A stretch of 43,952 nt of DNA, taken from a virus. Shown here piece by piece: positions 2,397-40,015 of the stretch. The notes beneath the pieces were generated by a model that was not told the origin of the DNA, did no database searches, and saw only the letters and a list, made by a program, of their open reading frames with translations. The DNA lies in the IMG/VR virus record IMGVR_UViG_3300045738_001838, positions 1-43,952 of that record; one strand, 5' to 3'. Numbering within the stretch: position 1 is the stretch's first letter; every line of letters begins with the position of its first letter. A program made the translations under genes and the position numbers.

Positions 2397-4963
2397 TCAT
2401 TTTTTAATTCTGATAGTTTTGTGTAAATTTTGTTGGTTTGCACCGCTATTCTGTCAGCGAACACAACTTCATCCTTTTTTACTCCATTTACGATAACAAT
2501 GTTGCTTTCTTCTGGTGCTGTGCCATTGTTTTGAACGACGCATTCTTCAAGTCTACGGGAGAATATCATAACCTTCGAGCTTCCGGTCTCGTCCTCTACG
2601 AACATCCTCATGTAGTCGTTACCATTCCTAGAAGTGCCCATGTAGGGCTTCGCGTCTACTGAGCCAATAAAGGACACCCTGTCGTCGACCTCAGAGTCTT
2701 CAACCTGCCTCAAAGACATCAAATCATCTTTTTTATTTGAGAAAATATCTCTTAAATTCTTGTTATAGGTATACCCAAGTAGGTGTTTTTCGTAGTACCA
2801 ATTTGCAAACGTTTCTGAATATTTATTCTTAAAATAAATTTGTTTGTATGGCTCAGACTTTGTTTTAATAGTGTTAAGGCGTGTGTCTTTGATTAGGGGT
2901 TTGCCTTTTTCATCTTTCTTTTTAGATATTCGTTTAACAATTTCAACTAAATCATAATCATTCGGCTCCGCCAACATCATTGCTGATTTCTTTTCTTTCT
3001 TTGTTAGGATGTTCCAAAGTTGAGCCTCGTAAACAATTTTACTACGAGACATGGCAAACCCTTCAAAGGTTCCAGCTTGAATTAATGCAGATAAAATTCC
3101 AATAGTCAAGCCAGACTCCTTTGCTCCTTCAAAGACCTCAAACTTGTTTGAGTAATGGTTCTTAAAGTTTACTAGTTTTTCAATTGACCGATCTGAAATA
3201 CCCTTGATTGAAAGTAATCCAAATCTAATGTCGTCTCCCTCTGATTTAAAGTCCATGTCAGACTTAATAATGTGGGGAGGAAGAAGCTTTATGCCAAAGT
3301 AATACATTTCCCTTTGAATCTTAGAAATCTCGCTAATCGGATCTGGTTCATGGCGAGTCATTTTAAGCAAGCTTAAGAAAAACTGCTGTGGATACTTAAA
3401 CTTAAGGTAAATAGTCGTGGCAGCCAAAGCGGCGTATGAAATAGAGTGAGATTTATTAAAAGAATAATTTGCTGAATCCTCCAGAACACTCCATAGGATG
3501 TCGCCGATTTCTGGTTCAAGATTATTTTCTTTAATCTTGTCTTTGATTTTCTTTTTCCATTTGCGAACTTCTTTTACCTTTTTCTTGCCAACGATGCGCC
3601 TTAACATTTCCGCCTCGTCAAGCGTGAAGCCAATCTTGTTTGCCATTTTCATCAGTTGCTCTTGGTATAGGGCCACGCCTCCTGTTGATGTCAAAATGTC
3701 ATCAAAGAACGGGTGAATGGGGTCGTAAGTTCCATCTTCTACGTAAGCAGCGTATTGGTCAACGAAGTTAAGCGCGCCGGGACGAGCCAAAGCCAGCACC
3801 GCGCTTAGTTCTTCTAAGTCTTTAGGCTTAACCTTTTGGCAGACACGAAAATTAGTCTCCGCTTCAATCTGAAATAGTCCGTGGGGGGTTCTAAGGTGCT
3901 GTAGGTTATCGTAGATGAGTTGATCTTTTAAGTCTACGTCTGATACTTTAATGCCAACGTTTTTGCATACATCATCGACAACAGACACGGCTCGAAGACC
4001 AAGTATATCAAGTTTGACATTGAAAATTGAAATCCAGTTCATGTCGTACGAAGCAACATGGCTTTTCTTGTCGGAGGTTAGTTCGGTTGGGCAGCTATCG
4101 TTAAGCTTTTCAAACGAAAGCGAGATTGCAGACGGGTGGACGCCTTTGTTTTTTATAAGCCCTTTTAGTTTCAACGCTATGTTGTAGCACTCTTCGTTTT
4201 CGTCACACCAAATTCTGAATTCTTCTTGTTCTGCGTACGCTTCCTTGAGGTCTTTTATTTGCCCAAAAACTTTGGGGATGAGCGCGGACACCTTGTTCAT
4301 CTCTTGCTCGCTTTTGCTTGCCGTAACCTTACCGCACTCTTTAATGCACAGCTTCCCACTTAATGTATTTAGTGTGATGATTTTAGAGGTCTTGCCTACG
4401 AATTTTGTTTCTAAATACTCTATTACTCTTTGGCGGTTGTAGTAACAAATATCCAAATCAACATCCATCATTAGTGAGCCATCTAAGTAGGTGATTCCGT
4501 CTACCACGCTTTTTTTAGTTCTAATTTTAGATATAAACCTTTCAAAAAATAACCCATACTCTATTGGGTCTATCTTGGTCACACCGATAAGGTACAAAAC
4601 CAAGCTGCCCGCCGCACTGCCACGGCCAAGCCCCGTGGGTATATCATTCTCTTTGCAAAAATTAATTACATCCCAAACAAGGAGAAGATAACCTATAAAC
4701 CCAAGGTCTTTAATTGTCTTAAGTTCGTGCTCTAGCCTTTCGACGTACTCCGATCTGTCCTCGCTGTGAACGCTGCTCCATATTTTTTCTCTACCATCTT
4801 CACATAGCGCTTCTAGAAAATCCTCATTACTAATGTCCTCGCTTACGCCAAGGGCTCTTTTATATTTGATATCGATATCAAAAGAGGGAAGGCGCACCCC
4901 ATGAAGAGGTATGTCTAGCTCTTTAAATTGTGACAAAAATGTGCTCATAATTCTATCTGCCAT
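2393..4963 (-). CDS. dnaE: DNA polymerase III alpha subunit, polymerase part lacking PHP
   Basis: C-family replicative polymerase core of 856 residues. Visible motifs are GRGSAAGS at 113-120, the palm aspartates in DVDLD (D169 and D171 align with E. coli D401/D403), the third catalytic Asp in KLDILGLRA, the finger-region stretches EQLMKMANKIGFTLDEAE and FNKSHSISYAALA, and a C-terminal OB fold (FIGSVDAKPYMG...GSSKVMIFSR). Usual DnaE is about 1160 residues; the missing 270 N-terminal residues are the PHP domain, encoded separately at 6670-7437. The protein starts exactly where the post-PHP linker begins. An insertion of roughly 20 residues precedes the palm aspartates. It overlaps the exonuclease gene by 19 nt, so proofreading and polymerase are co-translated. 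Confidence 0.95.
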   Translation of the reverse strand: MADRIMSTFLSQFKELDIPLHGVRLPSFDIDIKYKRALGVSEDISNEDFLEALCEDGREKIWSSVHSEDRSEYVERLEHELKTIKDLGFIGYLLLVWDVINFCKENDIPTGLGRGSAAGSLVLYLIGVTKIDPIEYGLFFERFISKIRTKKSVVDGITYLDGSLMMDVDLDICYYNRQRVIEYLETKFVGKTSKIITLNTLSGKLCIKECGKVTASKSEQEMNKVSALIPKVFGQIKDLKEAYAEQEEFRIWCDENEECYNIALKLKGLIKNKGVHPSAISLSFEKLNDSCPTELTSDKKSHVASYDMNWISIFNVKLDILGLRAVSVVDDVCKNVGIKVSDVDLKDQLIYDNLQHLRTPHGLFQIEAETNFRVCQKVKPKDLEELSAVLALARPGALNFVDQYAAYVEDGTYDPIHPFFDDILTSTGGVALYQEQLMKMANKIGFTLDEAEMLRRIVGKKKVKEVRKWKKKIKDKIKENNLEPEIGDILWSVLEDSANYSFNKSHSISYAALAATTIYLKFKYPQQFFLSLLKMTRHEPDPISEISKIQREMYYFGIKLLPPHIIKSDMDFKSEGDDIRFGLLSIKGISDRSIEKLVNFKNHYSNKFEVFEGAKESGLTIGILSALIQAGTFEGFAMSRSKIVYEAQLWNILTKKEKKSAMMLAEPNDYDLVEIVKRISKKKDEKGKPLIKDTRLNTIKTKSEPYKQIYFKNKYSETFANWYYEKHLLGYTYNKNLRDIFSNKKDDLMSLRQVEDSEVDDRVSFIGSVDAKPYMGTSRNGNDYMRMFVEDETGSSKVMIFSRRLEECVVQNNGTAPEESNIVIVNGVKKDEVVFADRIAVQTNKIYTKLSELKND

Positions 4964-5583
4964 TTTAATTTATTCCATACTTTTAGATTTAACTCCAGAT
5001 CAACCAAGGCATCATGAAGTTTGTCGGGGTTGTGATTGATTTCGAACTCCCTACCCAGTGCGGCAAGGTTTGTCTTGATTCCCTTTCTTCTTTCGTGATA
5101 CATTTTGTACTGGTATTGCGTTAGGTCTTCGGTGTTTCTGTAATGCATGTCGCATTTTACGCCCTTTGCTATGCAGTTTGTATCAATAATTTTATTAACC
5201 AAGTGCCTGTAGTCTTTTCCCATGTAGTTATAATAATCTTTTATCAAGTAGAGGTCAAAGCCAAGGATGTTGTGTCCTACTACGTAGTCGGCGTTGTCCA
5301 GCCAGTCTTCTATAGTCGGAAAAACTTCTTCTGGGGATAGACCTTTTTCTTCTAGCGTCTTGGGGCTAAACCTCGTTATCCTTGCTGCTTCTGGGCTAAT
5401 CTCTAGTTTCGTGTCCCACTTGATGTAGTAATTTTTTTCAGCAATTTTCTTATTACCCACCGCTTTGATCATGGCTATCTGCCAAGGCAGGTTATGGCAG
5501 GAGTTAAGGCAAAGATTGAGCGTCTCGCAGTCTATAAAGACGTACTCTTTTTCTTTGTCAAATCTTAAAAAATCTTCATCCAT
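4945..5583 (-). CDS. dnaQ: DnaQ-like 3'-5' proofreading exonuclease (DEDDh)
   Basis: A 212-residue DEDDh exonuclease. Exo I is FIDCET (D18, E20), Exo II is GHNILGFDL (D110), Exo III is HDALVD (H190, D195). Length matches stand-alone epsilon-type exonucleases. It removes misincorporated 3' nucleotides and probably acts with the polymerase encoded immediately downstream with a 19-nt overlap. The cognate PHP domain has lost its metal ligands, so this protein is likely the only proofreader. Confidence 0.92.
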   Translation of the reverse strand: MDEDFLRFDKEKEYVFIDCETLNLCLNSCHNLPWQIAMIKAVGNKKIAEKNYYIKWDTKLEISPEAARITRFSPKTLEEKGLSPEEVFPTIEDWLDNADYVVGHNILGFDLYLIKDYYNYMGKDYRHLVNKIIDTNCIAKGVKCDMHYRNTEDLTQYQYKMYHERRKGIKTNLAALGREFEINHNPDKLHDALVDLELNLKVWNKLKWQIEL

Positions 5584-8488: not shown

Positions 8489-9592
8489 TTATATAATTTT
8501 CAATAATTTTAAATTATTATTGAACTCATCGAAAGGAACATCTGCGTAAGAAAGGTTTACTGGATGCTGGGTGTGATAGCTCCTGTGTTCCTCTTTATCG
8601 CCTTCTAGCTTGCCCTCTGCCATGATTTTAGCTACGCTTGAGATGGAGAAGGCCGTGGCTTTTTGCATGGCTGAGAACCCGTCTGAGTCTCCCCAAATAG
8701 CCAGTTCATTTTTCCACTTTATATTCCCACCCTCTACGAAAGCTTTAATTAGGACAACGTCATCTACGCCATCTGAATTTTGACACCCTTTCTCGAAGGC
8801 CTCCCTTACGCATTCTTCGCTCTGGTTTTTCATTAAGAATCTAACTATGTCCCTGTGCCCTTCGTATCTTAGGGTTTTGTAGTAGCAATTTGTTACCCCT
8901 TTGGATTTCATGCTTTGAATTGTGTGTGAGGCTCCTCCGCTGGTATAGAAGGCTTCAAGTTTTCCAAGTGTATTGCACTCTACGGACTCTAGGCCGCTCA
9001 TTCCTTCCACCGTTTTTATTTCTCCGGCCTCTAGTATTTCACAGTCATCTTTGTATTCGTTTATGAGCCCATCTATAGACCAAGTAACAACGTAATCTAG
9101 GGGGCGGTTTACTTTTGAGTCTGGTAATCCTCCTACCATCATCCTGACTGTCGTCGCTTGTCTATGTAATTGTTTGCATCCGTGTTCTGCTAAAATATTT
9201 ACCCACCCGGGAGCCAAACCAAGATCAGTAAACACAGGCTTAGTCGCTTTCTCTTTGGCGTATTCGTTTATCCTTCGTGATACGTCAACCCTGCCGCCTA
9301 GATCGCAATAACGCGTTCCGTTGTCAATGCACCACTTGGCAACCTCTTCTGTTTGGTGGTATGGCAAACTGCTAATAAGAATGTCAGGGTGCTCAAACCT
9401 TAGTGGCCTGCGCCAAGACTTGTCTTTGTCTGTCGCATAAAACACACCCGTAGAACCTCCTACGATATGTTTTCTGAAATTTTTAACCGCGTCTTTGTTT
9501 GAGTCTATCCCTATCACCTCAAAGCCCAAGTTTTTCATGGCGTAGCATATAGCTTCCCCCATTCTTCCTATTCCTAGAACTGCTGCTTTCAT
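8489..9592 (-). CDS. Lysine 6-dehydrogenase / saccharopine dehydrogenase-like oxidoreductase
   Basis: 367 residues from the ATG at 9592 (MKAAVLGIGRMGEA). An upstream start at 9616 is possible but would overlap the small membrane gene. The first residues form an NAD(P)-binding Rossmann fold (GxGxxG). The middle has LGLAPGWVNILAE, VGGLP and LDYVVTWS, diagnostic for the saccharopine dehydrogenase/lysine dehydrogenase family, followed by YEGHRDIVRFL. LysDH oxidises the epsilon-amino group of lysine to give piperideine-6-carboxylate; saccharopine dehydrogenases and carboxynorspermidine dehydrogenases share the fold. With the aldehyde dehydrogenase at 12307-13923 it could form a two-step lysine oxidation to aminoadipate. 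Substrate is inferred, fold is well supported. Confidence 0.8.
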   Translation of the reverse strand: MKAAVLGIGRMGEAICYAMKNLGFEVIGIDSNKDAVKNFRKHIVGGSTGVFYATDKDKSWRRPLRFEHPDILISSLPYHQTEEVAKWCIDNGTRYCDLGGRVDVSRRINEYAKEKATKPVFTDLGLAPGWVNILAEHGCKQLHRQATTVRMMVGGLPDSKVNRPLDYVVTWSIDGLINEYKDDCEILEAGEIKTVEGMSGLESVECNTLGKLEAFYTSGGASHTIQSMKSKGVTNCYYKTLRYEGHRDIVRFLMKNQSEECVREAFEKGCQNSDGVDDVVLIKAFVEGGNIKWKNELAIWGDSDGFSAMQKATAFSISSVAKIMAEGKLEGDKEEHRSYHTQHPVNLSYADVPFDEFNNNLKLLKII

Positions 9593-9594
9593 TT

Positions 9595-9738
9595 TTAAAA
9601 AAATTCCAACCACCAAAGGGTTAGTATTGCTATTAGTATAGCAATCTCTACGGTGTATTGTCCATTAAAAAATAAAAAAGTTGATGACAGGATTATCGAA
9701 AACCCGATAAGCAAGTCTTTCCAGTTTTTCTTGCTCAT
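9595..9738 (-). CDS. Small single-span membrane protein
   Basis: A 47-codon frame starting MSKKNWKDLLIGFSIILS and continuing with a second hydrophobic stretch (IAILIAILTLWWLEFF). Two short hydrophobic segments (about 9-25 and 33-47) flanked by N-terminal Lys suggest a small inner-membrane protein. It lies 4 nt after the Lys-rich ORF stop and ends 2 nt before the dehydrogenase ATG, filling an otherwise empty gap in a tight operon, which supports expression. Function unknown. Confidence 0.5.
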   Translation of the reverse strand: MSKKNWKDLLIGFSIILSSTFLFFNGQYTVEIAILIAILTLWWLEFF

Positions 9739-11962: not shown

Positions 11963-12304
11963 TTATAGTAACTCTACTTCAAAAATCAAGGTTTGACCAG
12001 ATAGCCGATGACCATGATTACCATACGCCAAGTCAGGCGGAATCTCCAAGGTTCGCTTCTCGCCTTTTTTCATATCAGCGATAGCTTCGTCCCACCCCTT
12101 GATCACCTGTCCTACTCCGACAGTAAATTCAAACGGTACTCCTCGGGTTATAGAGCTATCAAACACACTACCATCCGTAAGGGTGCCGGTGTAATGCACC
12201 TTTGCGCTCTTGCCCGTTCCAAGCTTTTCTCCTTCTCCGGGTTTATTAACTGTGTATTTTAGCCCGCTAGGGGTTTCTGTTTTATTGTTTTCTTTATTGG
12301 CCAT
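11963..12304 (-). CDS. FKBP-type peptidyl-prolyl cis-trans isomerase
   Basis: A 113-residue single FKBP domain. Diagnostic stretches are KVHYTGTLTDGSVFDSS, PFEFTVGVGQVIKGWDEAI, MKKGEKRTLEIPPDLAYG and the last strand LIFEVELL; these include the aromatic and Asp residues that line the active pocket. There is no signal peptide, so it probably acts in the cytoplasm. It catalyses proline isomerisation and may help fold products of this operon. It lies between ALDH and the ExbB-like gene with short gaps and the shared AATAATTATG start context. FKBPs are rare in phages. Confidence 0.93.
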   Translation of the reverse strand: MANKENNKTETPSGLKYTVNKPGEGEKLGTGKSAKVHYTGTLTDGSVFDSSITRGVPFEFTVGVGQVIKGWDEAIADMKKGEKRTLEIPPDLAYGNHGHRLSGQTLIFEVELL

Positions 12305-12306
12305 AA

Positions 12307-13923
12307 TTATTTCATTCCTTGTGGAAAGGTTAGTTTGTCAGCGTGATTTACCGTCCAGCTTACTTCGTTTGTGACAGCCCTGTATGTCCTTGCTGCGCTT
12401 GGGAATCCGTTTCCGGACTTTTTAACGCCACCAAAGGCAAGGTGTGATTCAGCAGCGATAGAGCCACCGTTCCAGTAGATCATTCCTGCGTCGCATTCGT
12501 CTCGCAAGATTCGCGCTTTACGAAAATCATTCGTAAGAACACCCAAAGCAAGACCGTAATCGGTATCATTATAAATATTAATTGCATCCTCTAAAGTGTC
12601 GAAAGGAATGATAGCAACGTGTGGACCAAAAACTTCCTGCTTTAAATAAGGCACATCTCTCCATTCGGTTTTGTAAACCATAAAGGAAGAGAAGAATGCT
12701 TTGTCGCAAACATCAGTATAGCGTGGCTCAAGTAAAACCTCTGCTTCTGGGTCTGCTAAAACCATGTCGTTATACTTTTTAACTTTTTCGTACGCCTGTT
12801 TATTAATTAGGGGGCCGTAATGCATGAGTTTATCTGGCTCATAGTCGACCCAACCGGTGGAATCTGGGCCACCGGAAGTACTAATTAATTGTTTGAAGGG
12901 GTTGCCTGTCTTGAGCTTAGAGGCTTCTCTTGCAAAGTCTTTCGCGAATTGATCAACTATCGTCCTTTGTACTATCAATCTGCCAGAGGATACGCAGCGC
13001 TGCCCAGAAAGCTTGTATGCGCTTGCAAGCGTAGCTTCTCGGGCAAGCTTAGCTTCGACGTCATCAAAAACAATGCAAGCGGACTTGCTCCCCATTTCGC
13101 ATGAAGTGGTTTTGTGCCAGCTTCGGGCTGCTACCTTTCGAATACACTTGCCAACTTCGGCAGAGCCAGTAAAACAAATATGATCCACATCGTCGCGAAC
13201 CAACATGTCCCCAGTATCGCCATCACCATGAACCAAATTAACGACTCCATCAGGGAGCCCAGCTTCCTCATAAATTTCAACAGCCATTTGTGTAGACATC
13301 GGTGCATCTTCGCTAGGTTTAATTACCACCGTATTGCCTTCTACGATAGCTGGCGCAGCACACCAGTATGCTCCGATAGCTAAAGGAAAGTTAAACGGCG
13401 ATACAATTGCTATTACGCCCTTGGGCTTGCGAAGCATATAACAATCTTTGTCTTCTATTTCAGACGCTATCGCTTCTCCGTGGGGGTATCGCCCGGAACT
13501 GAACGCAAATTGAGCCATATGTAAAGCTTCATTTACTTCTGCAATTGATTCGTTATAATTTTTTCCCGTTTCTAAAGAAATAACTGTCGCCAGTTCTTCT
13601 CTGCGTCGCTCAATTATTTGAGCAACTTTATACATATAATCTGAGCGGACAAAGCGACTTACTTTCCTCCACTTGGGAAAAGTATTGCGAGCAGATTCAG
13701 TTGCCATTTCTACTTCCATGTGCCCACTTAAGGGGAACGCCCCTTGCGGTTTGCCTGTGGCCGGGTTTAGTTTGGTATACGTCTGGTGCGTGGCTTGCCA
13801 CTTACCGTTGATATAATTTCTGCCTTCGAAGTTCATGGTGTGGTATTTATTTTGCGGTGCTTTCCATAAGCTTTTTAACACTGTCTTTGCAGAACCCAAC
13901 ACCTTGTCTATTAATGAATTCAT
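12307..13923 (-). CDS. NAD(P)-dependent aldehyde dehydrogenase
   Basis: 538 residues, full-length ALDH superfamily. Catalytic residues are visible: N178 (SPFNFP), E276 (CEMGSKS), C310 (SGQRCVSS), plus IKPSEDAP and the C-terminal EVFGPHVAI and GGVKKSGNG motifs. The protein oxidises an aldehyde to an acid; with the lysine-dehydrogenase-like enzyme a natural substrate would be aminoadipate semialdehyde, but family members are hard to tell apart by eye. The chosen start has AGGAG 7 nt upstream and overlaps the VOC gene by 77 nt; Met30 (13836) would give a classical start just after the VOC stop but lacks an SD. Residues 1-29 form an extra amphipathic N-terminus. Confidence 0.92.
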   Translation of the reverse strand: MNSLIDKVLGSAKTVLKSLWKAPQNKYHTMNFEGRNYINGKWQATHQTYTKLNPATGKPQGAFPLSGHMEVEMATESARNTFPKWRKVSRFVRSDYMYKVAQIIERRREELATVISLETGKNYNESIAEVNEALHMAQFAFSSGRYPHGEAIASEIEDKDCYMLRKPKGVIAIVSPFNFPLAIGAYWCAAPAIVEGNTVVIKPSEDAPMSTQMAVEIYEEAGLPDGVVNLVHGDGDTGDMLVRDDVDHICFTGSAEVGKCIRKVAARSWHKTTSCEMGSKSACIVFDDVEAKLAREATLASAYKLSGQRCVSSGRLIVQRTIVDQFAKDFAREASKLKTGNPFKQLISTSGGPDSTGWVDYEPDKLMHYGPLINKQAYEKVKKYNDMVLADPEAEVLLEPRYTDVCDKAFFSSFMVYKTEWRDVPYLKQEVFGPHVAIIPFDTLEDAINIYNDTDYGLALGVLTNDFRKARILRDECDAGMIYWNGGSIAAESHLAFGGVKKSGNGFPSAARTYRAVTNEVSWTVNHADKLTFPQGMK

Positions 13924-15527: not shown

Positions 15528-17015
15528 TTATATTACATCTCCATCTCGGTTGCTTTCGTCTTCTAGAGTATATTGCATTCTTTCTCTAGCCGCAATATCC
15601 TGAGCGCTTCCAACTTCTTCAACGTTAAAATTCATTACATTAAAATTAATAAAATTATTTTCAAATCTTACGCTGCCGTTCTCATCGATCCTTCTTACTA
15701 GATCATGGTGACCTGCGGCATCTTTGCCTTGCCACCTTGATTTTACCGTGACAAGCTTATGGGTTCCAAATTCTTCCCCGTCGTTAGCAAGTTCGTCCAC
15801 GGTTTTTCTTCTGAAGATTCCTACGTAACTAGCAAACCACTGAAGCCTGTCTGACAAGGCTATCGCTGAGCTATCATCTACGACTGCCCCACCTCGCCTG
15901 TTAAAGTTTTCCCCGCTTCTGTTCATTTGCATTGCGGTAAAAATGGCGCAGTTTAATTCTTCTGCGAGCTTCTTAAGCTTGTCAACTTTATCACCAATCG
16001 CTTGATATTCTGCCCAATTGTTGCCAACTTTTTCTCCTGTTAGCTTTATGTAGTCATAGCCAAGCACAAAGGGGTTACCGCGTCCGACGTGAATCATCGC
16101 CCATCTTCGCACGAAGGAGCATAGTTGGTCAATGTTTTTATTTCCCACTGGGTAGTGATAAAGCTCGCAGTTTTTTATTTTTTTGAAAGCATCTCGGGTT
16201 TTCTCTACTAGCTCTGGATTTTTTCTCCAATTGCCCGTCTCAAGATGCCATAAAGATACGCCGCTTAATGCTGAAGCGATTCTAAATTTTACATCTTGGG
16301 TATCCATCTCTGTGTCGAGCAACAAGGACTTAACCTTTCCGCCCTCAGAAATTTTTCGACATAAGTCCATTATGAAAGTGGATTTGCCTTGGCCGGGGCG
16401 CGCAACAACAGCGTATAAATTTCCGGGACGTAGCCCGCCATACATTCTGTTGAATTCTTTATAGGGGGTAGCAAAGCCAGACTCATCGCAGGGGTTTTCC
16501 CCCCTTTCCTCAACCATAGCTTCGATGTCGCTTAGAAGTAGTTCTGGTTCTTGTTCTGTGACTTCAATTTCTTTAAGCTCATCACCATACAGGGTGTCTA
16601 CTGTGCTTACAATTTCGTCAATTTCTTTTTCGCCGTTTTCTTTTAGATATTTTTTGATGTCATCACATTTATGATACAGGTTTCTTCTAACCGTAAGCTT
16701 GGCAAGTTCTTGAGCGGACTCCATTAAGCCCTTGACGTTTATAGATGTAAATGAAACTGATTCTAAATAATCATAAATATTAATATCATCTTTAAATGAT
16801 ATGCCAATGTTTTTTATTTTTTCAGCGATGATTACCGTGTCAACGCTTTCGTTTTTAATTATAGCGTTTCTTAAAACGCAGAACACGGTTTGATGTACTT
16901 CATTTACAAAGTCTTTTTCACTAATGTATCTTTCAATGTCTGCGAAAAATTTGGGGTTCTTGATTAATCCACCTAGCACATGTCTTTCTATCTGTATCGA
17001 ATATATTGATTCCAT
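15528..17015 (-). CDS. dnaB: Replicative DNA helicase, DnaB-like
   Basis: 495 residues. The N-terminal helical domain (MESIYSIQIERHVLGGLIKNP) is the DnaB NTD; the RecA-like core carries Walker A ARPGQGKST (205-213), LLLDTEMDTQDV (H1a), a Walker B-like VLGYDYIK, and FTAMQMNR (H3). It unwinds DNA 5'-3' as a hexamer ahead of the polymerase. The primase gene starts immediately after its stop. An SD-like AAAGG lies 12 nt before the ATG. The acidic tail (EDESNRDGDVI) is not part of standard DnaB. Confidence 0.94.
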   Translation of the reverse strand: MESIYSIQIERHVLGGLIKNPKFFADIERYISEKDFVNEVHQTVFCVLRNAIIKNESVDTVIIAEKIKNIGISFKDDINIYDYLESVSFTSINVKGLMESAQELAKLTVRRNLYHKCDDIKKYLKENGEKEIDEIVSTVDTLYGDELKEIEVTEQEPELLLSDIEAMVEERGENPCDESGFATPYKEFNRMYGGLRPGNLYAVVARPGQGKSTFIMDLCRKISEGGKVKSLLLDTEMDTQDVKFRIASALSGVSLWHLETGNWRKNPELVEKTRDAFKKIKNCELYHYPVGNKNIDQLCSFVRRWAMIHVGRGNPFVLGYDYIKLTGEKVGNNWAEYQAIGDKVDKLKKLAEELNCAIFTAMQMNRSGENFNRRGGAVVDDSSAIALSDRLQWFASYVGIFRRKTVDELANDGEEFGTHKLVTVKSRWQGKDAAGHHDLVRRIDENGSVRFENNFINFNVMNFNVEEVGSAQDIAARERMQYTLEDESNRDGDVI

Positions 17016-29949: not shown

Positions 29950-30557
29950 ACTATATCTTGAAAATTTGTTGATTTTAATTTTTTCTTCAGGATCTCTTTG
30001 CCTCTTTGATGTAGGTTGATGGCAGTTTGGGTGCTGGTTTTTATTTTTTTTGCAATAAAGCTCCACGTGGGCTTGCCTTTTTCTGAAAAATTTTCGAAAT
30101 ATCTTAGCTCAAACACCCTGTAAATACGTTTATCCTTCAGTCCTTTTAAGATGTTAAAGATGTATTCTTTATCGTTTCTATTTTTATCTTCATCGGAGAA
30201 AAGCTCCTTAGCTTGGTTGTCTGTTATTAGTTTCAGGACGTCCTCTTCTGAGGTAACGAATTTATTGTTTGAGTTAATTAAGGTTAAGCAGTAATATTTC
30301 GTGCAATTTCCCAACCAAGTAGAAAATTTGCAATTTTTATTATACTTATAAGAAAGTATCGCTTTAAAGATGACAAAGTCCTTGTTTTCTAGAACATCAC
30401 CCCTTCTGAAACCCTTTACCGAGGCAATTGGAATATAGTTTTGGCATATTTTGTAGAAAAGTTTTTCGTGTCTTTCGCTCAGGAGCCTGTAGCTCTCATT
30501 GCATCCGTTTTTTTTAATTTTCCTTATTAATGTGTTGTCTACCGGCTGTCTTTTCAT
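29946..30557 (-). CDS. Sigma70-family-like RNA polymerase sigma factor
   Basis: 203 residues. The N-terminal part (LSERHEKLFYKICQNY...YKYNKNCKFSTWLGNCTKYYCLTLIN) fits sigma region 2, with FSTWL matching the promoter-opening stretch. The C-terminal part (KRIYRVFELRYF...WSFIAKKIKTSTQTAINLHQRGKEIL) is a region 4 helix-turn-helix. It may recognise phage middle or late promoters, possibly one of the two -10 classes in this window; that link is inference. It overlaps the dNMP kinase gene by 44 nt. Confidence 0.78.
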   Translation of the reverse strand: MKRQPVDNTLIRKIKKNGCNESYRLLSERHEKLFYKICQNYIPIASVKGFRRGDVLENKDFVIFKAILSYKYNKNCKFSTWLGNCTKYYCLTLINSNNKFVTSEEDVLKLITDNQAKELFSDEDKNRNDKEYIFNILKGLKDKRIYRVFELRYFENFSEKGKPTWSFIAKKIKTSTQTAINLHQRGKEILKKKLKSTNFQDIV

Positions 30558-31149
30558 AACAAGCGAGCCATTCTACAAAGTCATTAATGTGACTTTTAAG
30601 CTCACTTATTTGACCATTCTTAATAAACTCCCATTCGATTTGAAAGTCACTTTTTTCTTTAATTATTGGATCGTTTTTAGCTTCTTCTGAGTTGGCAGGA
30701 GCTTTGAATTTCTTTACTAACATGTTTGTGTAGGTGTCAGGCTCTTCCGACCATTGAGAAACGTGAATCAAAATTCCATTAAGCTCGTTCTTTAGCCAGC
30801 TTACCTCGTCGTGTTCATATTCGTCATAGCGTATGTCAGTGATAATCTTAAACCCATTAAACTTATCTTTAATTAAATTATCGTTAAGCCTTTCAATCCA
30901 ATATCTACCTTTTGAGGCTTGGCGTTTTAACGAGCCATGAAACACGAGGAGCGGCCTTATTATTTCCTTCTCTTCTCGAGAGCAGGCTTGGGAATCTATG
31001 CCATAGTGCATTCTGCACCACTGGTTAAGTTCTGTTTTAAGCTCATTAGCTAAGGAGTATTTTCTGCATGGCGCGTACTGGGAAAGAAGATCAAAGAACG
31101 TGTCCTTTCCTGCGCCTGCAACACCTGATATGCCGATTACTGTATTCAT
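30514..31149 (-). CDS. Deoxynucleoside monophosphate kinase (T4 gp1-like)
   Basis: 211 residues. P-loop GVAGAGKDT at 9-17 and a following YSLANELKTELNQW fit phage dNMP kinases; KIITDIRYDEYEHDEVSWL contains the conserved D-x-R-Y segment. It phosphorylates dNMPs to dNDPs, feeding the pathway with the reductase and dCMP deaminase. Upstream lies the structured intergenic region 31165-31640; an AT-rich TATACA 8 nt before the ATG might be a -10. Confidence 0.82.
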   Translation of the reverse strand: MNTVIGISGVAGAGKDTFFDLLSQYAPCRKYSLANELKTELNQWCRMHYGIDSQACSREEKEIIRPLLVFHGSLKRQASKGRYWIERLNDNLIKDKFNGFKIITDIRYDEYEHDEVSWLKNELNGILIHVSQWSEEPDTYTNMLVKKFKAPANSEEAKNDPIIKEKSDFQIEWEFIKNGQISELKSHINDFVEWLACYEKTAGRQHINKEN

Positions 31150-31164
31150 AATATCACTGTATAA

Positions 31165-31640
31165 TATATAAAAATTATTTAAACTTTAAACCTAACAATC
31201 TTCGAGTATGACTGCTTATCCTTTAAATTTTTTCTCTGGGCTGAAGAAAGCCCGAAGGGCTTTCGGATAAGAACATAGCTGTCCACTGGATAATAAATGT
31301 TACTTTTAACAAAGCCGCTTCAGTCCGTCGCGTTAACCCCTTTTAGTCTCGCTTGCTGACTCGTTAAATTATGTTGTCTTTGTTTTCTGCGGTGGGACTT
31401 TTCTTTTTGACTGCTTATCCTTTTTCCTCTTGGGAGGATGAAGTTTCTAGCTTAAGTATTACTACTTACATTAGCCTCAACTGTCGCTTTTTCCCGAAAT
31501 AACAGCAGACTTATTGGGTCTAGTTGGCTAAGGTCTTTTTACGGGCCTGTGGTCTCTTATGAGTTTATGTGAGGTTAACCCTCACAAGCTATTCACCGCT
31601 AACAAAGAACTAATACGAAGAATAATGTTTTTTTTTAAAT
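31165..31640 (-). ncRNA. Candidate structured RNA, about 475 nt, non-coding gap
   Basis: No convincing ORF is seen in this long gap. On the minus strand several perfect hairpins are seen: GUGAGG-GUUAA-CCUCAC (31585-31569), UAAGUA-GUAA-UACUUA with a GNRA loop (31468-31453), and GAAAGCCC-UUC-GGGCUUUC (31264-31246). A 16-nt direct repeat TGACTGCTTATCCTTT lies at 31209-31224 and 31408-31423; the intervening GGATAAG complement (31265-31271) could pair with either copy but not both. Strand is assumed from the flanking genes. I do not recognise a known RNA family; replication-origin DNA is an alternative. Confidence 0.5.
31209..31423. repeat. 16-bp direct repeat pair with a central complement
   Basis: TGACTGCTTATCCTTT occurs at 31209-31224 and 31408-31423 (199 bp apart). 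GGATAAG at 31265-31271 is complementary to the CTTATCC of both copies. Within a non-coding region this arrangement is unlikely by chance. Confidence 0.8.
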
Positions 31641-31649
31641 TTGCAAGAT

Positions 31650-32207
31650 TTATTTTTTCTTTTTCTTTCCGTTAGAGTTTTCTTCATCATCAGGTGGTGC
31701 TTCGGGCGCTGGTTCGATTTGATCTGAAAGCCCAGAGTTAAAAGCCTCAAGCATGGCGGGGTCGACGTAGGTGGATTCTCCAGATATAATTTGTTCTTTT
31801 TCTAAAACCTTTTGCTTGTAGAATGCCACGATATGAACAAGGTTTCTTATATCTTTCTCCTGTATGGATGAAGTTTGACAAAGGTCAGTATTATCGTCAA
31901 CCAAGTGACAAAACTCATTGATCTCATTTGCAAGAAACTTAGCAGTCCAAGGGCCAAGATCTATGCTTTGTTGAAAAGAGTCCATGTGTTTATCGAGAAT
32001 GTAATATTTTTTATCCCCATACTCCTTAGAGCAAACCAACAGCGCTTCTTCTAGCTTTTCTAGAGCTATTCTAAACGCGATAGTCACCACCTCTTCTTGA
32101 CCTAGGTCGAATATAGGAACAATTTTCTTAATATCTCTACTAATTTCAAACGAGTCTTCTTTTTCAAACCACTCGAAAAGCTGATTGGAGGCTTCCTGTA
32201 TTGTCAT
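31650..32207 (-). CDS. Hypothetical acidic protein with Lys tail
   Basis: 185 residues, helical (EASNQLFEWFEKEDSFEISRDIKK...), a Pro/Glu/Asp linker near 165 and the end NGKKKKK. No known family. First gene left of the divergent promoter region; its -10 is 9 nt before the ATG, so leaderless initiation is likely and it may be expressed early. Function unknown. Confidence 0.65.
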   Translation of the reverse strand: MTIQEASNQLFEWFEKEDSFEISRDIKKIVPIFDLGQEEVVTIAFRIALEKLEEALLVCSKEYGDKKYYILDKHMDSFQQSIDLGPWTAKFLANEINEFCHLVDDNTDLCQTSSIQEKDIRNLVHIVAFYKQKVLEKEQIISGESTYVDPAMLEAFNSGLSDQIEPAPEAPPDDEENSNGKKKKK

Positions 32208-34818: not shown

Positions 34819-34892
34819 GCGGGTGTCGTATAATGGTATTACTCCAGCCTTCCAAGCTGATAACGTGAGTTCGATTCTCACCACCCGCTCCA
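34819..34892 (+). tRNA. tRNA-Gly (TCC)
   Basis: Acceptor GCGGGTG pairs with CACCCGC; T-arm GTGAG-TTCGATT-CTCAC; anticodon TCC in loop CTTCCAA; CCA encoded. First tRNA of the cluster. Confidence 0.95.
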
Positions 34893-34897
34893 TTTCG

Positions 34898-34974
34898 CGG
34901 GGCGTAGCGCAGTCTGGTAGCGCGCTTGCTTTGGGAGCAAGATGTCGCAGGTTCGAATCCTGCCGCCCCGACCA
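34898..34974 (+). tRNA. tRNA-Pro (TGG)
   Basis: Acceptor CGGGGCG with CGCCCCG, discriminator A, CCA encoded; anticodon TGG in loop TTTGGGA; T-arm GCAGG-TTCGAAT-CCTGC. Confidence 0.95.
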
Positions 34975-34990
34975 AAAATAAAAAAGCTAC

Positions 34991-35034
34991 TTTTAAAACG
35001 AGCAGAAAAACCGTTCCATGGGTGGACGATATAT
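34991..35034 (+). repeat. 44-nt repeated element, copy A
   Basis: Pattern TTTTAAAACG-N4-GAAAAACC-N8-GGTGGACGATATAT, shared exactly with copy B at 37907-37950 while N4 and N8 differ. Flanks form a small stem: GCT before and AGC inside N4 here. Located 16 nt after tRNA-Pro and 11 nt before a promoter. Confidence 0.75.
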
Positions 35035-35045
35035 CAAGTTCAGTC

Positions 35046-35073
35046 TTGACTTATTTAAAAAAAGATGTATCAT
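35046..35073 (+). promoter_or_regulatory. Sigma70-like promoter, leaderless
   Basis: TTGACT (35046-35051), 16-bp spacer, TATCAT (35068-35073), then 6 nt to ATG 35080. Confidence 0.75.
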
Positions 35074-35079
35074 GAGAGC

Positions 35080-35247
35080 ATGACGGAGAAAGATAAATGG
35101 GAAGACAGGCTAGAAGCCCCCAAAGACAACTACGAAAGGTGGATTGACAAGCACAACCACAAGCTTGAGTTTATTAGAACCATCGGAAGCATAATTGCGG
35201 CCATCACGGGAGTTTTGGTATTTTTAAAGGTTTTTAAGATCATTTAA
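35080..35247 (+). CDS. Small tail-anchored membrane protein
   Basis: 55 residues from ATG 35080; the upstream ATG at 35065 overlaps the -10 region and is rejected. Charged N-terminal half (MTEKDKWEDRLEAPKDNYER), then a hydrophobic segment at about 34-52 (TIGSIIAAITGVLVFLKVF). Possibly a coiled-coil membrane protein like the XhlA type. It ends just before tRNA-Arg. Confidence 0.65.
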   Translation: MTEKDKWEDRLEAPKDNYERWIDKHNHKLEFIRTIGSIIAAITGVLVFLKVFKII

Positions 35248-35249
35248 AC

Positions 35250-35326
35250 GCTTCCGTAGCTCAATTGGATAGAGCATCAGTCTTCTAAACTGAGGGTTCT
35301 GGGTTCGAGTCCCAGCGGGAGTACCA
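35250..35326 (+). tRNA. tRNA-Arg (TCT)
   Basis: Acceptor GCTTCCG with CGGGAGT (two wobble pairs), anticodon TCT in loop CTTCTAA, T-arm CTGGG-TTCGAGT-CCCAG, CCA encoded. Confidence 0.95.
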
Positions 35327-35338
35327 TTAAAATAGTTA

Positions 35339-35366
35339 TTGACACCCATAAAATACATGTTAATCT
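35339..35366 (+). promoter_or_regulatory. Sigma70-like promoter
   Basis: TTGACA (35339-35344), 16-bp spacer, TAATCT (35361-35366); ATG at 35378 is 11 nt beyond. Confidence 0.7.
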
Positions 35367-35377
35367 AAAGATTCATT

Positions 35378-35656
35378 ATGAGTAAAACAAATCAAAACCA
35401 GTGCGAAACAGACCAAAATCAGTGCGAAACAACTCAAAGCAAATACACACAAGTTAAGACAGGGTATGCCCGCGCGGCAGTTCTTCTTCTGGCGGCAAAC
35501 TTCTGCCTAACAGGATACGTTTTGACAGGTATGATGAAAATCCAAGGCGAGCAAGCAGACAGCTCACAGTCTCCACGCCCCCCTTCTAAGGCGGCGGGAA
35601 CTAGCTCGCCCACCTCAACGGAGGTTCCTCAAACGCTTGAGAAAGAAGATAATTAA
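35378..35656 (+). CDS. Small single-span membrane protein with QNQCET repeat
   Basis: 92 residues. The N-terminus has a duplicated NQCET motif (QNQCETDQNQCETTQ) from a 21-bp direct repeat; a transmembrane helix lies at about 32-52 (AAVLLLAANFCLTGYVLTG); the rest is a Pro/Ser/Thr-rich tail. No signal-peptide cleavage site is obvious. Unknown function. Ends before a strong terminator. Confidence 0.6.
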   Translation: MSKTNQNQCETDQNQCETTQSKYTQVKTGYARAAVLLLAANFCLTGYVLTGMMKIQGEQADSSQSPRPPSKAAGTSSPTSTEVPQTLEKEDN

Positions 35657-35689
35657 TTCACCGTTTGATAATCATCGGTGATCTCCAGA

Positions 35690-35746
35690 CCCCCACTTAA
35701 TCCTTGGTCTTTGTATTTCAGCCATTGTATTAGGTGGGGGTTTTTT
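35690..35746 (+). terminator. Rho-independent terminator
   Basis: 12-bp stem CCCCCACTTAAT (35690-35701) with ATTAGGTGGGGG (35729-35740), one G-T pair, 27-nt loop, then TTTTTT. tRNA-Val starts immediately after the T-tract. Confidence 0.85.
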
Positions 35747-35823
35747 ACGAGCGTAGCTCAGCTGGTTAGAGCGCCACGTTTACACCGTGGATGTCGGGGG
35801 TTCGAATCCCTCCGCTCGTACCA
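35747..35823 (+). tRNA. tRNA-Val (TAC)
   Basis: Acceptor ACGAGCG with CGCTCGT, anticodon TAC in loop TTTACAC, T-arm CGGGGG-TTCGAAT-CCCTC type pairing, CCA encoded. It starts directly after a terminator T-tract, so read-through or an unseen promoter is required. Confidence 0.94.
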
Positions 35824-35828
35824 TATTT

Positions 35829-35902
35829 GCTCCGGTAACTCAACTGGTTAGAGTGCGTGCCTTATAAGCGCGTGGTTGCGAGTTCGAGCCTCGCTCGGAG
35901 CA
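35829..35902 (+). tRNA. tRNA-Ile (TAT), CCA not encoded
   Basis: Acceptor GCTCCGG with TCGGAGC, anticodon TAT in loop CTTATAA, T-arm GCGAG-TTCGAGC-CTCGC. The 3' end reads ACTA rather than ACCA, so CCA must be added. A UAU anticodon reads ATA codons directly, avoiding lysidine modification. Confidence 0.9.
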
Positions 35903-35904
35903 CT

Positions 35905-35946
35905 AAAAAAAGTTGCAGCAGAGGTTCATAGGAACATGCTGCAACT
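35905..35946 (-). terminator. Rho-independent terminator for the HAD/SpeD-like operon
   Basis: Perfect 10-bp stem AGTTGCAGCA (35911-35920) with TGCTGCAACT (35937-35946). On the minus strand it is followed by TTTTTT (35910-35905). Confidence 0.85.
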
Positions 35947-35984
35947 TATAGGTCGTCCTCCACCCCTTTCATCCCCTTGAAAAA

Positions 35985-36401
35985 TTACATTTCTTCTATT
36001 CTTTTTGCCTTGTCGTCGATTACTAAATCGTAAGGAGGCTTTACGTATTTTCCCTTGGTTCCGGTAGATAAGTCGTGAAACTTACACCCCCATGATTCTA
36101 ATTGTTTCCAAGTAAAGTCATAATAACATGAGCCTTCTTTTTTAGATTTTTCGGAACCGCCTCTAGCGGTCCAATAAACCACGTGCCAATCTTCATCGTA
36201 TAGTTTATTTATTTTTGCAATGTTTTTTTTGTTTGGCTCAGCCAAGTCGTATCGTCGTTTCCCCGAGTAGAAACAAATTGTTTCGTCGATGTCGACGAGG
36301 ACCACTCTCTTTACTCCTTTCGGAGCGAGCTTGTCTGACTCGTGAAATTTTAATTCTTCAGCCCATTCTTCGTATACGTTTGCTTCAGGATGCCCGTTCA
36401 T
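35985..36401 (-). CDS. HAD-superfamily phosphatase
   Basis: 138 residues. Nucleophile motif VDIDET (D37, D39), VVYWTARGG (motif II Thr/Ser), and VIDDKAKRI (motif IV). Resembles the small phage HAD phosphatases (polynucleotide phosphatase or nucleotidase). A good SD (GAGGGG) precedes the ATG, which overlaps the small membrane ORF by ATGA. Substrate unknown. Confidence 0.85.
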   Translation of the reverse strand: MNGHPEANVYEEWAEELKFHESDKLAPKGVKRVVLVDIDETICFYSGKRRYDLAEPNKKNIAKINKLYDEDWHVVYWTARGGSEKSKKEGSCYYDFTWKQLESWGCKFHDLSTGTKGKYVKPPYDLVIDDKAKRIEEM

Positions 36402-36511
36402 TTTTTATCCCCTCTTTTTACGTTTTTTATTTTGTTAAGACAACCGCCCAGCATTCCGAGGCACAGAAACGTTGTTATTCCAGCTAATATTAAGAGTATA
36501 AGTTCTATCAT
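36398..36511 (-). CDS. Tiny single-span membrane protein
   Basis: A 37-codon frame MIELILLILAGITTFLCLG... with one hydrophobic helix and a basic tail (NKIKNVKRGDKK). It overlaps the SpeD-like stop as TAATG and the HAD start as ATGA, so it is almost certainly translated. Function unknown. Confidence 0.6.
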   Translation of the reverse strand: MIELILLILAGITTFLCLGMLGGCLNKIKNVKRGDKK

Positions 36512-36915
36512 TATTCTTTCCAAGTTAATTTAATTAAGTTGTCTTTGAAAAATTCTTCTGTATAATTTATTGCATCCATAGGGTCAAAGCTCCTACATGT
36601 ATAAATATCAATAGAAAAGAACTTCGGAGTTCTCTTGTCCCACGCGTAAATGTGCATGCCGGACTCCTTCCAGTGAGTATAAGCGCACCACCCATAATCA
36701 GGGTCATGATTACATATTGGAGATGTCACTGCTGTCATAGCTAATACCTTAGTTATTTCATGGCAATAACGAGTCATGTCTTCTGGCAGAAACACGCCGC
36801 GTAACGTTCCCTCTATGATTAATCGCTGTCTGCAGATATCTGGAGCCAAATCTACCCATTTCGGCCCTTGATCCTTAACGCGGTCTACCTCTCCAGATTT
36901 ACAGCTAAAGTCCAT
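36511..36915 (-). CDS. speD: S-adenosylmethionine decarboxylase-like protein (SpeD family)
   Basis: 134 residues. YTHWKESGMHIYAWDK and FFSIDIYTCRSFDPMDA align with the ESHISIHTWPE and VDVFTCG segments of bacterial SpeD. The self-cleaving Glu-Ser (E84-S85) and the active-site Cys (C107) are kept; the His that follows in SIHTWPE is replaced by Tyr, with a His two residues earlier. The enzyme would make a pyruvoyl cofactor and decarboxylate SAM (or another amino acid) for polyamine synthesis. Recent SpeD homologues act on arginine or ornithine, so the substrate is uncertain. Own promoter upstream. Confidence 0.72.
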   Translation of the reverse strand: MDFSCKSGEVDRVKDQGPKWVDLAPDICRQRLIIEGTLRGVFLPEDMTRYCHEITKVLAMTAVTSPICNHDPDYGWCAYTHWKESGMHIYAWDKRTPKFFSIDIYTCRSFDPMDAINYTEEFFKDNLIKLTWKE

Positions 36916-36921
36916 ATATCA

Positions 36922-36949
36922 ATTATACTGTCAGCATTAATAATCACAA
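36922..36949 (-). promoter_or_regulatory. Sigma70-like promoter, leaderless
   Basis: Minus strand TTGTGA (36949-36944), 16-bp spacer, TATAAT (36927-36922), 6 nt to ATG 36915. Confidence 0.72.
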
Positions 36950-36994
36950 ATTTTTAATTTAAATTATGCAAAAACGTGCTAAGGTTTTAGTTGT

Positions 36995-37070
36995 GCTTGA
37001 GTAGCTTTAATGGTAGAGCGCGGGTTTTGTAAACCTGAGGTTATCGGTTCGAGCCCGATCTCAAGCTCCA
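36995..37070 (+). tRNA. tRNA-Thr (TGT)
   Basis: Acceptor GCTTGAG with CTCAAGC, anticodon TGT in loop TTTGTAA, T-arm ATCGG-TTCGAGC-CCGAT, CCA encoded. Confidence 0.93.
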
Positions 37071-37072
37071 CT

Positions 37073-37148
<76 letters not shown>

Positions 37149-37158
37149 AAAAACAATT

Positions 37159-37731
37159 ATGAAATCTAAGATAAAACTAAAATGTGATGGTTGTGGGAAA
37201 TATTTCTACAAAGCACTAAAGGAATATAAAAGTCGGGCAAAGTGGGAGGCTTCTAAAGATGAGAAAAAAACCCTCTCATGGTACTGTTCCAAGGCGTGTG
37301 CGGGAAAGTGGTCACAATGGGATAACAAGTTGTCTCCATTTAAATATCCTATTTCGTGCGCAAGGGCAACCTCAAAATGTAAGGGGTATAAATTTGATTT
37401 AACGGCAGGATTTTTAGCGAGACTCTGGGACAAACAAGAAGGAAAATGTGGTTACTCTGGGCTTAAAATGGGCAAGCCCCTTACTCATTCCGAATCTAGA
37501 TGGGAAAATAAAAGATGCACACCCCTCATTGGTTCGTTAGACAGAATGGATTGTTCGGGGGGATACACGAGGGATAATGTTCATTTTATTTGCCTTTCTC
37601 TTAATTATGCAAAACGAAACTGGAGCGAAGATGTATTTAAAGCGTTCTTAAGGAAGCTTATGAACCACAAGACTAGGGGCGAAGTGGTGGAATTGGTAGA
37701 CACGACGGACTTAAAATCCGTTGGCTATTAA
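37159..37731 (+). CDS. HNH homing-type endonuclease, end overlaps tRNA-Leu
   Basis: 190 residues from ATG 37159 (10 nt after tRNA-Ala); a frame start at 37105 lies in the tRNA and is rejected. N-terminal zinc-type Cys pairs (KCDGCGKYF and WYCSKACAG), then GKCGYSGLKMG and SLDRMDCSGGYTRDNVHFICLSLNYAK, a form of the HNH motif common in group I homing nucleases (SLDRID-S-GY-x-x-NV). The last residues come from tRNA-Leu sequence and its TAA. Probably a mobile nuclease inserted in the tRNA cluster. Confidence 0.82.
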   Translation: MKSKIKLKCDGCGKYFYKALKEYKSRAKWEASKDEKKTLSWYCSKACAGKWSQWDNKLSPFKYPISCARATSKCKGYKFDLTAGFLARLWDKQEGKCGYSGLKMGKPLTHSESRWENKRCTPLIGSLDRMDCSGGYTRDNVHFICLSLNYAKRNWSEDVFKAFLRKLMNHKTRGEVVELVDTTDLKSVGY

Positions 37732-37766
37732 AAGCCGTGTGGGTTCGAGTCCCACCTTCGCTACCA
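37678..37766 (+). tRNA. tRNA-Leu (TAA)
   Basis: Acceptor GGCGAAG with CTTCGCT, anticodon TAA in loop CTTAAAA, long variable arm, T-arm GTGGG-TTCGAGT-CCCAC, CCA encoded. The HNH frame reads into its first 54 nt. Confidence 0.95.
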
Positions 37767-37768
37767 CC

Positions 37769-37843
37769 GGCCCGTTCGTCTAGCGGATAGGACGCAGCCC
37801 TTTCAAGGCTGAGAGAGGGGTTCGATTCCCCTACGGGCTACCA
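37769..37843 (+). tRNA. tRNA-Glu (TTC)
   Basis: Acceptor GGCCCGT with ACGGGCT, anticodon TTC in loop CTTTCAA, T-arm AGGGG-TTCGATT-CCCCT, CCA encoded. Two nt after tRNA-Leu. Confidence 0.95.
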
Positions 37844-39073: not shown

Positions 39074-40015
39074 ATGAAAAAACTAGCAGCACTACTCTTA
39101 TTAGGTTTCACCCTTACTCTTTCTTCGTACGCTGGTGAAAAGAAACAATCTGTCGCAGAACATCTTCAAAATGTATCTGTTACGATCAGATCAGAAGGCG
39201 CATTTAGCGCGGGCGAAGGCTCGGGGGTAATCTTCACTAGGAAGGACTCTAAAGGAAATTTAGTAAACTTTATTTGGACCGCCGCCCATGTCGTAGACAA
39301 TCTTCGACTGACAAAGCGCGTTTTAGTTGATGGCACATACAAAACCGTCGTACATTTTAAAGATCCTGTCGTTATTAAGGAAATTCGTCAAAACGGCAGA
39401 ACCGTAGGCCGTCTTCAAATGGATGCGGAGGTGCTAAAATATTCCGAAAGTGAAGATGGGCACGATCTCGCATTACTTCGCGTTCGTAAGTTTAATTTTG
39501 TAACGGATAGCGTTGTATTTTACCTTGATAAAGCAATTCCGCCTTTGGGCACAGACCTCCTGCACGTTGGCTCCCTGCTAGGCCAAATGGGGGCAAATTC
39601 TATGACAGACGGAATCTATTCGCAGCACGGCAGGATTTTAAAAAATTTAAACAAGCGCATCTTTGATCAGACTACTTGTACGGCGTTTCCGGGTTCTAGT
39701 GGCGGTGGAGTGTTCTTAAAGCATGATGAAAATGCAAAATACGTAGGGATGTTGGTTCGTGGAGCGGGGGAAGGGTTTAATTTAATCGTACCTATACGCA
39801 GGATGGTCGAGTACTGCCAAGAGAACAAAATCATGTGGGCCCTAGATAAAAACGTACCAATGCCCACGGAAGCCGAGCTAAAGGAAATGCCTATTGAAAA
39901 CACTCCCAAAGAAAAAGAAGAAGAGGGGGACGCGGAAAAAGAAGCGGTCAAAAAGATGTTTCCGTTTATGCTTAGGGTGACTTACCCTAAAATAATACTA
40001 ATAAAGGAAAGGTAA
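39074..40015 (+). CDS. Secreted trypsin-like serine protease
   Basis: 313 residues. Signal peptide KKLAALLLLGFTLTLSSYA (cleavage near 20). Catalytic triad H72 (WTAAHVVD), D131 (GHDLALLRV), S209 (FPGSSGGGVF). The layout is S1C/DegP-like without a PDZ domain; the C-terminus carries an acidic Lys/Glu-rich segment (about 275-295). It would act in the periplasm or outside. A leader candidate TTGTAA-TAAAAT lies upstream; terminator at 40037. Confidence 0.9.
   Translation: MKKLAALLLLGFTLTLSSYAGEKKQSVAEHLQNVSVTIRSEGAFSAGEGSGVIFTRKDSKGNLVNFIWTAAHVVDNLRLTKRVLVDGTYKTVVHFKDPVVIKEIRQNGRTVGRLQMDAEVLKYSESEDGHDLALLRVRKFNFVTDSVVFYLDKAIPPLGTDLLHVGSLLGQMGANSMTDGIYSQHGRILKNLNKRIFDQTTCTAFPGSSGGGVFLKHDENAKYVGMLVRGAGEGFNLIVPIRRMVEYCQENKIMWALDKNVPMPTEAELKEMPIENTPKEKEEEGDAEKEAVKKMFPFMLRVTYPKIILIKER

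Follow-up and report, generated by a model that had tools for sequence, protein, structure and literature searches.

A putative gene for a large, folded non-coding RNA with twin repeats in uncultured viruses, probably phages

An ORF-free gap and the RNA it is predicted to encode

What does a virus keep in a gap of half a kilobase in which no open reading frame of at least 60 aa is found? The question is raised by positions 31150-31649 of a 44-kb IMG/VR virus record, whose whole stretch of 43,952 nt is called the window below. An earlier note had described this region as ORF-free, with several perfect hairpins, and had offered a large ornate phage RNA, a riboswitch-like switch or a replication origin as candidates. 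Our comparative analysis indicates that the gap almost certainly harbours the gene for a folded RNA of ~420 nt, encoded on the minus strand and here named type A, and the first of the three candidates is strongly supported by full-length conservation and by covariation in ten helices. The folding energy of the region is unremarkable (z = -1.3 for the plus strand and -2.0 for the minus strand), so it is conservation and covariation that set the region apart from chance.

We used the downstream kinase gene as a query, which yielded 13 loci, and added further contigs by DNA patterns. The gap matched at 87-98% DNA identity in all kinase-found loci reaching far enough upstream, except the distant L014. 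Among the relatives, conservation sets in abruptly at AGTTCTTTG (31611) and ends near 31193, which places the conserved core of the RNA gene at about 31193-31611 on the minus strand (~419 nt; RNA nt 1-419, where nt i corresponds to window position 31612-i). In near relatives the RNA is 87-92% identical over its full length, whereas seven flanking or control genes are mostly 65-84% identical: the genes adjoining the RNA gave only partial alignments, mostly at 65-76%, and among the controls dCMP deaminase stood at 69-84%, NrdA mostly at 73-83% and the tmRNA at 79%. In these comparisons type A DNA is thus more conserved than every neighbouring protein gene tested.

Searches with covariance models and DNA patterns recovered ~16 more divergent type A lineages. 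A 128-nt covariance model detected homologues beside distant kinases at 35-117 bits, confirmed in whole contigs, and patterns together with a second model added L135, L136, L138, L221, L207 and L197 (= L223), as well as L109 weakly. The fold was assessed on a sequence-only alignment of 21 members with ten named helices, four of them in pseudoknots. In these helices 96.7% of the cells are paired, against 82.8% in shuffled alignments, double-sided changes occur in 32 of the 46 pairs, and the covariation score was matched by none of 500 shuffles. Control structures slid along the alignment reached 29-42% pairing and at most 11 pairs with double changes; since the helices had been picked out of a previous version of the same family alignment, part of the excess over these controls stems from that choice, while the double changes are unaffected. 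Compensatory changes beyond chance are therefore present in the homologous gaps, and the comparison shows the RNA to be under strong selection on its predicted fold.

Helix H1 (GCGGUG/CACCGC, nt 13-18/218-223, window 31389-31599, minus strand as for all helices) is 98.4% paired with double changes in 4/6 pairs. The compact core in the 5' half is a predicted double pseudoknot, in which strands 23-26 and 67-70, both upstream, pair with the H7 loop to form H2 (GCUU/AAGC, nt 23-26/123-126, 31486-31589; 100% paired, double changes 4/4) and H4 (CCCG/CGGG, nt 67-70/116-119, 31493-31545; 100% paired, 1/4). Helices H5 (nt 81-86/136-141), H6 (91-94/102-105) and H7 (107-111/127-131), at 31471-31531, are 99-100% paired, with double changes in 6/6, 4/4 and 2/5 pairs, respectively. 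Two further pseudoknots, both long-range, join the 5' half to the 3' half, namely H3 (CCAC/GUGG, nt 60-63/326-329, 31283-31552; 96.4% paired, 3/4) and H8 (AGUCC/GGACU, nt 213-217/286-290, 31322-31399; 99% paired, 3/5). H9 (nt 254-257/294-297, 31315-31358) is 91.7% paired with double changes in 3/4 pairs. Unpaired stretches such as GUAAAAAGRC are strictly conserved. The perfect hairpins of the earlier note were found on the minus strand, including one with a GUAA tetraloop (nt 146-161, 31451-31466) and one capped by C(UUCG)G in the second module (31246-31264), the latter in near relatives only. In relatives the GNRA loop reads GUAA, GCAA, GAAA or GAGA, with compensatory changes in its stem; these make sense on the minus strand only, the one strand on which the loop is kept.

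Gene order, promoters and competing explanations

Besides the RNA, the window carries genes for ribonucleotide reductase, a C-family DNA polymerase, a primase, a DnaB-like helicase, sigma factors and a head protease, together with nine tRNAs and a tmRNA. The phage tmRNA (17562-17991, minus strand; counterparts at 16002-16402 in G013 (L156) and 8732-9158 in G003 (L141)) has an unusually long tag, which in the window, read from the likely GCC resume codon, is ANTNVDMEMALSLAEADEILAKFGFVEDEALLLVE followed by a stop (35 aa), and in G013 ANDNVDMAPSVAEADEILARFGFQEAALAA followed by a stop (30 aa); the window copy was found by Rfam and missed by ARAGORN. Also on the minus strand lie an aldehyde dehydrogenase family gene (12307-13923, Pfam 398 bits), whose closest match in the phage collection is LR756511, a 595-kb uncultured phage (48% identity), and a gene for a saccharopine dehydrogenase-like protein (8489-9616). 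FKBP-type peptidyl-prolyl isomerase genes were seen in the window (11963-12304, minus strand), in L006 (2982-3509) and in L008 (2793-3509). By the head protease region, a trypsin-like protease gene (39074-40015, plus strand) is 75-85% identical across distant relatives and has no relative in the phage collection.

The position of the RNA is kept among relatives, with ORF31650 and the dCMP deaminase gene upstream and a kinase or sigma-like gene downstream. In the window the first conserved base is preceded, at a distance of 7 nt, by a promoter-like element (31619-31646, minus strand) made up of TTGCAA (31646-31641), a 16-nt spacer and TATTCT (31624-31619), which is weak (8/12 consensus matches, below the cut of a generic scan). 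In most relatives a TTG element and a -10-like element are separated by 15-18 nt, the latter lying about 6 nt ahead of the first conserved base, and the TTG element stands in register with that base in 27 of 29 relatives (mean 8.4/12, against 6.9 in shuffled sequence). L207 and the weaker homologue L109 both have TTGACA-17-TATTAT upstream and a terminator downstream of the RNA, in L207 a hairpin with a T-run. From this arrangement we infer that the RNA would be transcribed from its own sigma-70-type promoter. In the window itself no clear terminator follows the RNA, which leaves the position of its 3' end uncertain; transcription may run on into the kinase gene.

Gene order also bears on the two readings in which the RNA would be part of a neighbouring message. 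As a cis-regulatory leader, that is a riboswitch or an attenuator, it would control the deoxynucleoside monophosphate kinase gene (30514-31149, minus strand; PHROG 139 and synteny), which in the window and almost every close relative starts straight after the RNA on the same strand, no clear terminator separating the two. A leader would hold a fixed position before the gene that it regulates, but here the next gene varies between the dNMP kinase, a sigma-like gene, a tRNA and others: the kinase is absent after the RNA in L207, L197/L223 and L109, other genes intervene in L070, L058, L102, L136 and L138, and in L072 a tRNA lies directly 3' of the RNA. Moreover, direct reading revealed promoter-like sequences between the RNA and the next gene in L061, L077, L135 and L138. 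The variable next gene, the terminators of L207 and L109 and these promoter-like sequences exclude a kinase riboswitch as a general explanation, so that the riboswitch-like switch proposed in the earlier note is now very improbable as a kinase leader and the same evidence points to a stand-alone RNA. The RNA might instead be a structured 3' part of the ORF31650 mRNA, or be processed from it, and regulate ORF31650 (31650-32207, minus strand), which lies just 5' of most type A RNAs as well as of most RNAs of a second type described below, and whose predicted fold includes a domain of nucleic-acid-binding type. We consider this unlikely, given that the promoter-like element is in register with the first base of the RNA, that other genes, some of FKBP type, separate ORF31650 from the RNA in several near relatives, and that in L070, L058, L207 and L109 no ORF31650 was detected next to the RNA.

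A function at the level of DNA, such as a replication origin or a packaging site, would suit the repeats and inverted repeats of a gap situated 0.6 kb from the divergence point of transcription. However, compensatory changes over ten helices including pseudoknots act on RNA, the GNRA loop is preserved on just one of the strands, and no GC-skew turn is seen at 31 kb in the 44-kb fragment; the origin suggested in the earlier note thus finds no support, and a DNA element of any kind is extremely improbable. The RNA could also be a novel ribozyme, or take the place of a housekeeping RNA in the virus (RNase P-like or 6S-like). The compact multi-pseudoknot fold and the strictly conserved unpaired stretches would accord with this, but no Rfam match was obtained even at permissive thresholds and no known catalytic core was recognised, which makes it quite improbable. 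A resemblance to group I introns or RNase P had been considered and was dropped for want of Rfam support. Taken as a whole, the locus is probably explained by a stand-alone gene whose product is a large, structured non-coding phage RNA. The gene product would act as RNA, probably as a stable RNA or a ribonucleoprotein.

Twin repeats and the central strand

The 16-nt direct repeat TGACTGCTTATCCTTT was confirmed as exact at 31408-31423 (copy R1) and 31209-31224 (copy R2), both on the minus strand of the RNA gene; we estimate that chance would give about 4e-5 such repeat pairs per 600 nt. Each copy stands at the end of a hairpin module, of which there are two. Across 13 lineages, with near relatives reduced to one representative, the 10-nt repeat cores are 95% identical within an RNA and 59% between RNAs, a difference reached by none of 20000 shuffles. 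The lineages show 11 different repeat sequences, and within each RNA the copies agree. By this comparison the twin repeats evolve in concert.

The earlier note had also proposed that a central complement can pair with only one copy at a time. In the window a central GGATAAG (31265-31271) is indeed complementary to both copies, as part of a central region (31265-31286, minus strand) comprising strand X2 (nt 326-340) and CUUAUCC (nt 341-347). In L056, L061 and L072, CTTATCC (nt 341-347) stays fixed although the repeat changes, and thus its pairing with the repeat is not conserved. A duplex test of complementarity within lineages gave p=0.0014 for X2 with R1 and a weaker p=0.058, not significant by itself, for X2 with R2, and p=0.016 and 0.022 for X1, the analogous strand before module 1; the windows were set post hoc and the four tests are uncorrected. 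A simple listing of all repeat complements yielded no consistent internal partner, the signal coming from the X windows alone. Among nine phage contigs, repeat targets or complements elsewhere did not exceed background, so a partner in trans is unsupported, and the joint change is most simply explained by an internal partner common to both copies. Mutually exclusive pairing is hence upheld in part: the concerted copies and the complementary X2 strand agree with it, while CTTATCC as the exact partner does not hold.

A common central strand, with which each copy pairs at some stage, may be what keeps R1 and R2 alike. It is possible, if somewhat short of an even chance, that R1 and R2 replace each other on one strand, whether as alternative states of a single molecule or as a swap between molecules. 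Formation of a homo-oligomer by the RNA is rather unlikely on the present comparison.

Known RNA families and other RNAs in the same slot

We searched Rfam with cmscan, which gave no structured-RNA match to the gap, either in the window at gathering score or in 31100-31700 at E<=10, where chance matches only appeared; the divergent homologues L102, L135, L133 and L138 likewise gave only chance matches at permissive thresholds. The type A RNA is absent from Rfam 15, and no description of it was found in the literature. A blastn search of 50,697 phage records found no homologue (one search matched only an adjacent tRNA), and no cultured phage in that collection carries the RNA; LR756511 was not matched by the covariance models designated R1 and R2. 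The carriers of type A are uncultured viruses of microbes, probably bacteriophages. When the paired repeat was sought in 85k bacterial and archaeal genomes, 5 chance matches came up, none of which fitted the RNA profile; the query was solely the repeat of the near relatives, and cellular homologues that have diverged may exist.

GOLLD, ROOL and OLE, which are RNA-only homo-oligomers, are the closest in kind to type A. The earlier note had suggested a comparison with GOLLD and ROOL, and the Rfam covariance models of GOLLD, ROOL and OLE match neither the window nor the homologues tested; together with the different architecture, this sets type A apart from all three. ROOL (Rumen-Originating, Ornate, Large) is a pseudoknotted phage RNA that has no known function and often occurs close to tRNA islands (PMC12286853). 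Like ROOL, type A is large, pseudoknotted and virus-encoded, with nine tRNAs (34819-37843) at 3.2-6.2 kb and, in L072, a tRNA at its 3' side; unlike ROOL, it is shorter (~420 nt) and has another covarying architecture, twin concerted repeats and a linked, conserved winged-helix gene. GOLLD is a large ornate RNA of phages and metagenomes, also near tRNAs (PMC12286853). Type A shares its large size, viral setting and nearby tRNAs, but many GOLLD members exceed 800 nt and no correspondence of sequence or helices was seen. OLE is a large, highly conserved ornate RNA mainly of extremophilic bacteria (PMC12286853), about 600 nt long (PMC12054373); type A is likewise large and highly conserved, yet it comes from a virus record, is ~420 nt long and lacks an Rfam match.

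Many of the more distant relatives without a type A match have the same gene order and a non-coding gap after ORF31650. In 36 loci this gap holds a separate covarying RNA, type B, with double changes in 11 of 12 predicted pairs. Type B loci include L063, L073, L078-L082, L084, L092, L098, L108 and L110, with a gap of ~450 nt after the ORF31650 homologue; the sequence is unrelated to type A and, close to the 3' end, includes a strong C/G hairpin. Rfam returned only chance matches for type B, and blastn against the 50,697 phage records found no homologue. Types A and B never co-occurred: type A contigs gave no convincing match to type B, and type B contigs, when searched with covariance models R1 and R2, yielded no type A. 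Repeats that match each other are present in type B too, towards the 3' end (longest common substring 6.1 against 4.4, p=0.0002). In L107 (4604-4982) and L111 (about 4560-4967) the slot is occupied by yet another sequence type, the third, which has strong hairpins and repeats of GGGAAGU type and is unmatched by covariance models R1-R3.

The protein of ORF31650 has no Pfam match and no significant PHROG match. Its AlphaFold model (pLDDT 88.9) has a winged-helix-like N-terminal part and a helical C-terminal part, and comparison with the PDB gave generic winged-helix matches only (best Foldseek E 2e-3). The protein is a tentative candidate for the partner of the RNA, with which it would perhaps form a ribonucleoprotein. 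It is doubtful, but conceivable, that types A and B are far-diverged forms of one ancestral strand-exchange RNA with a dedicated winged-helix protein. If they are, twin repeats that change only jointly and pair with one central strand would give a switchable or domain-swapped assembly.

Large ornate phage RNAs are few, and to our knowledge none has a known function. For type A, ~16 divergent lineages define the fold ahead of any experiment, the concerted twin repeats single out the strands to mutate, and the linked winged-helix gene provides a candidate protein for testing. Furthermore, that the slot can be filled by another type of RNA suggests that an entire group of phages relies on having an RNA at this position.
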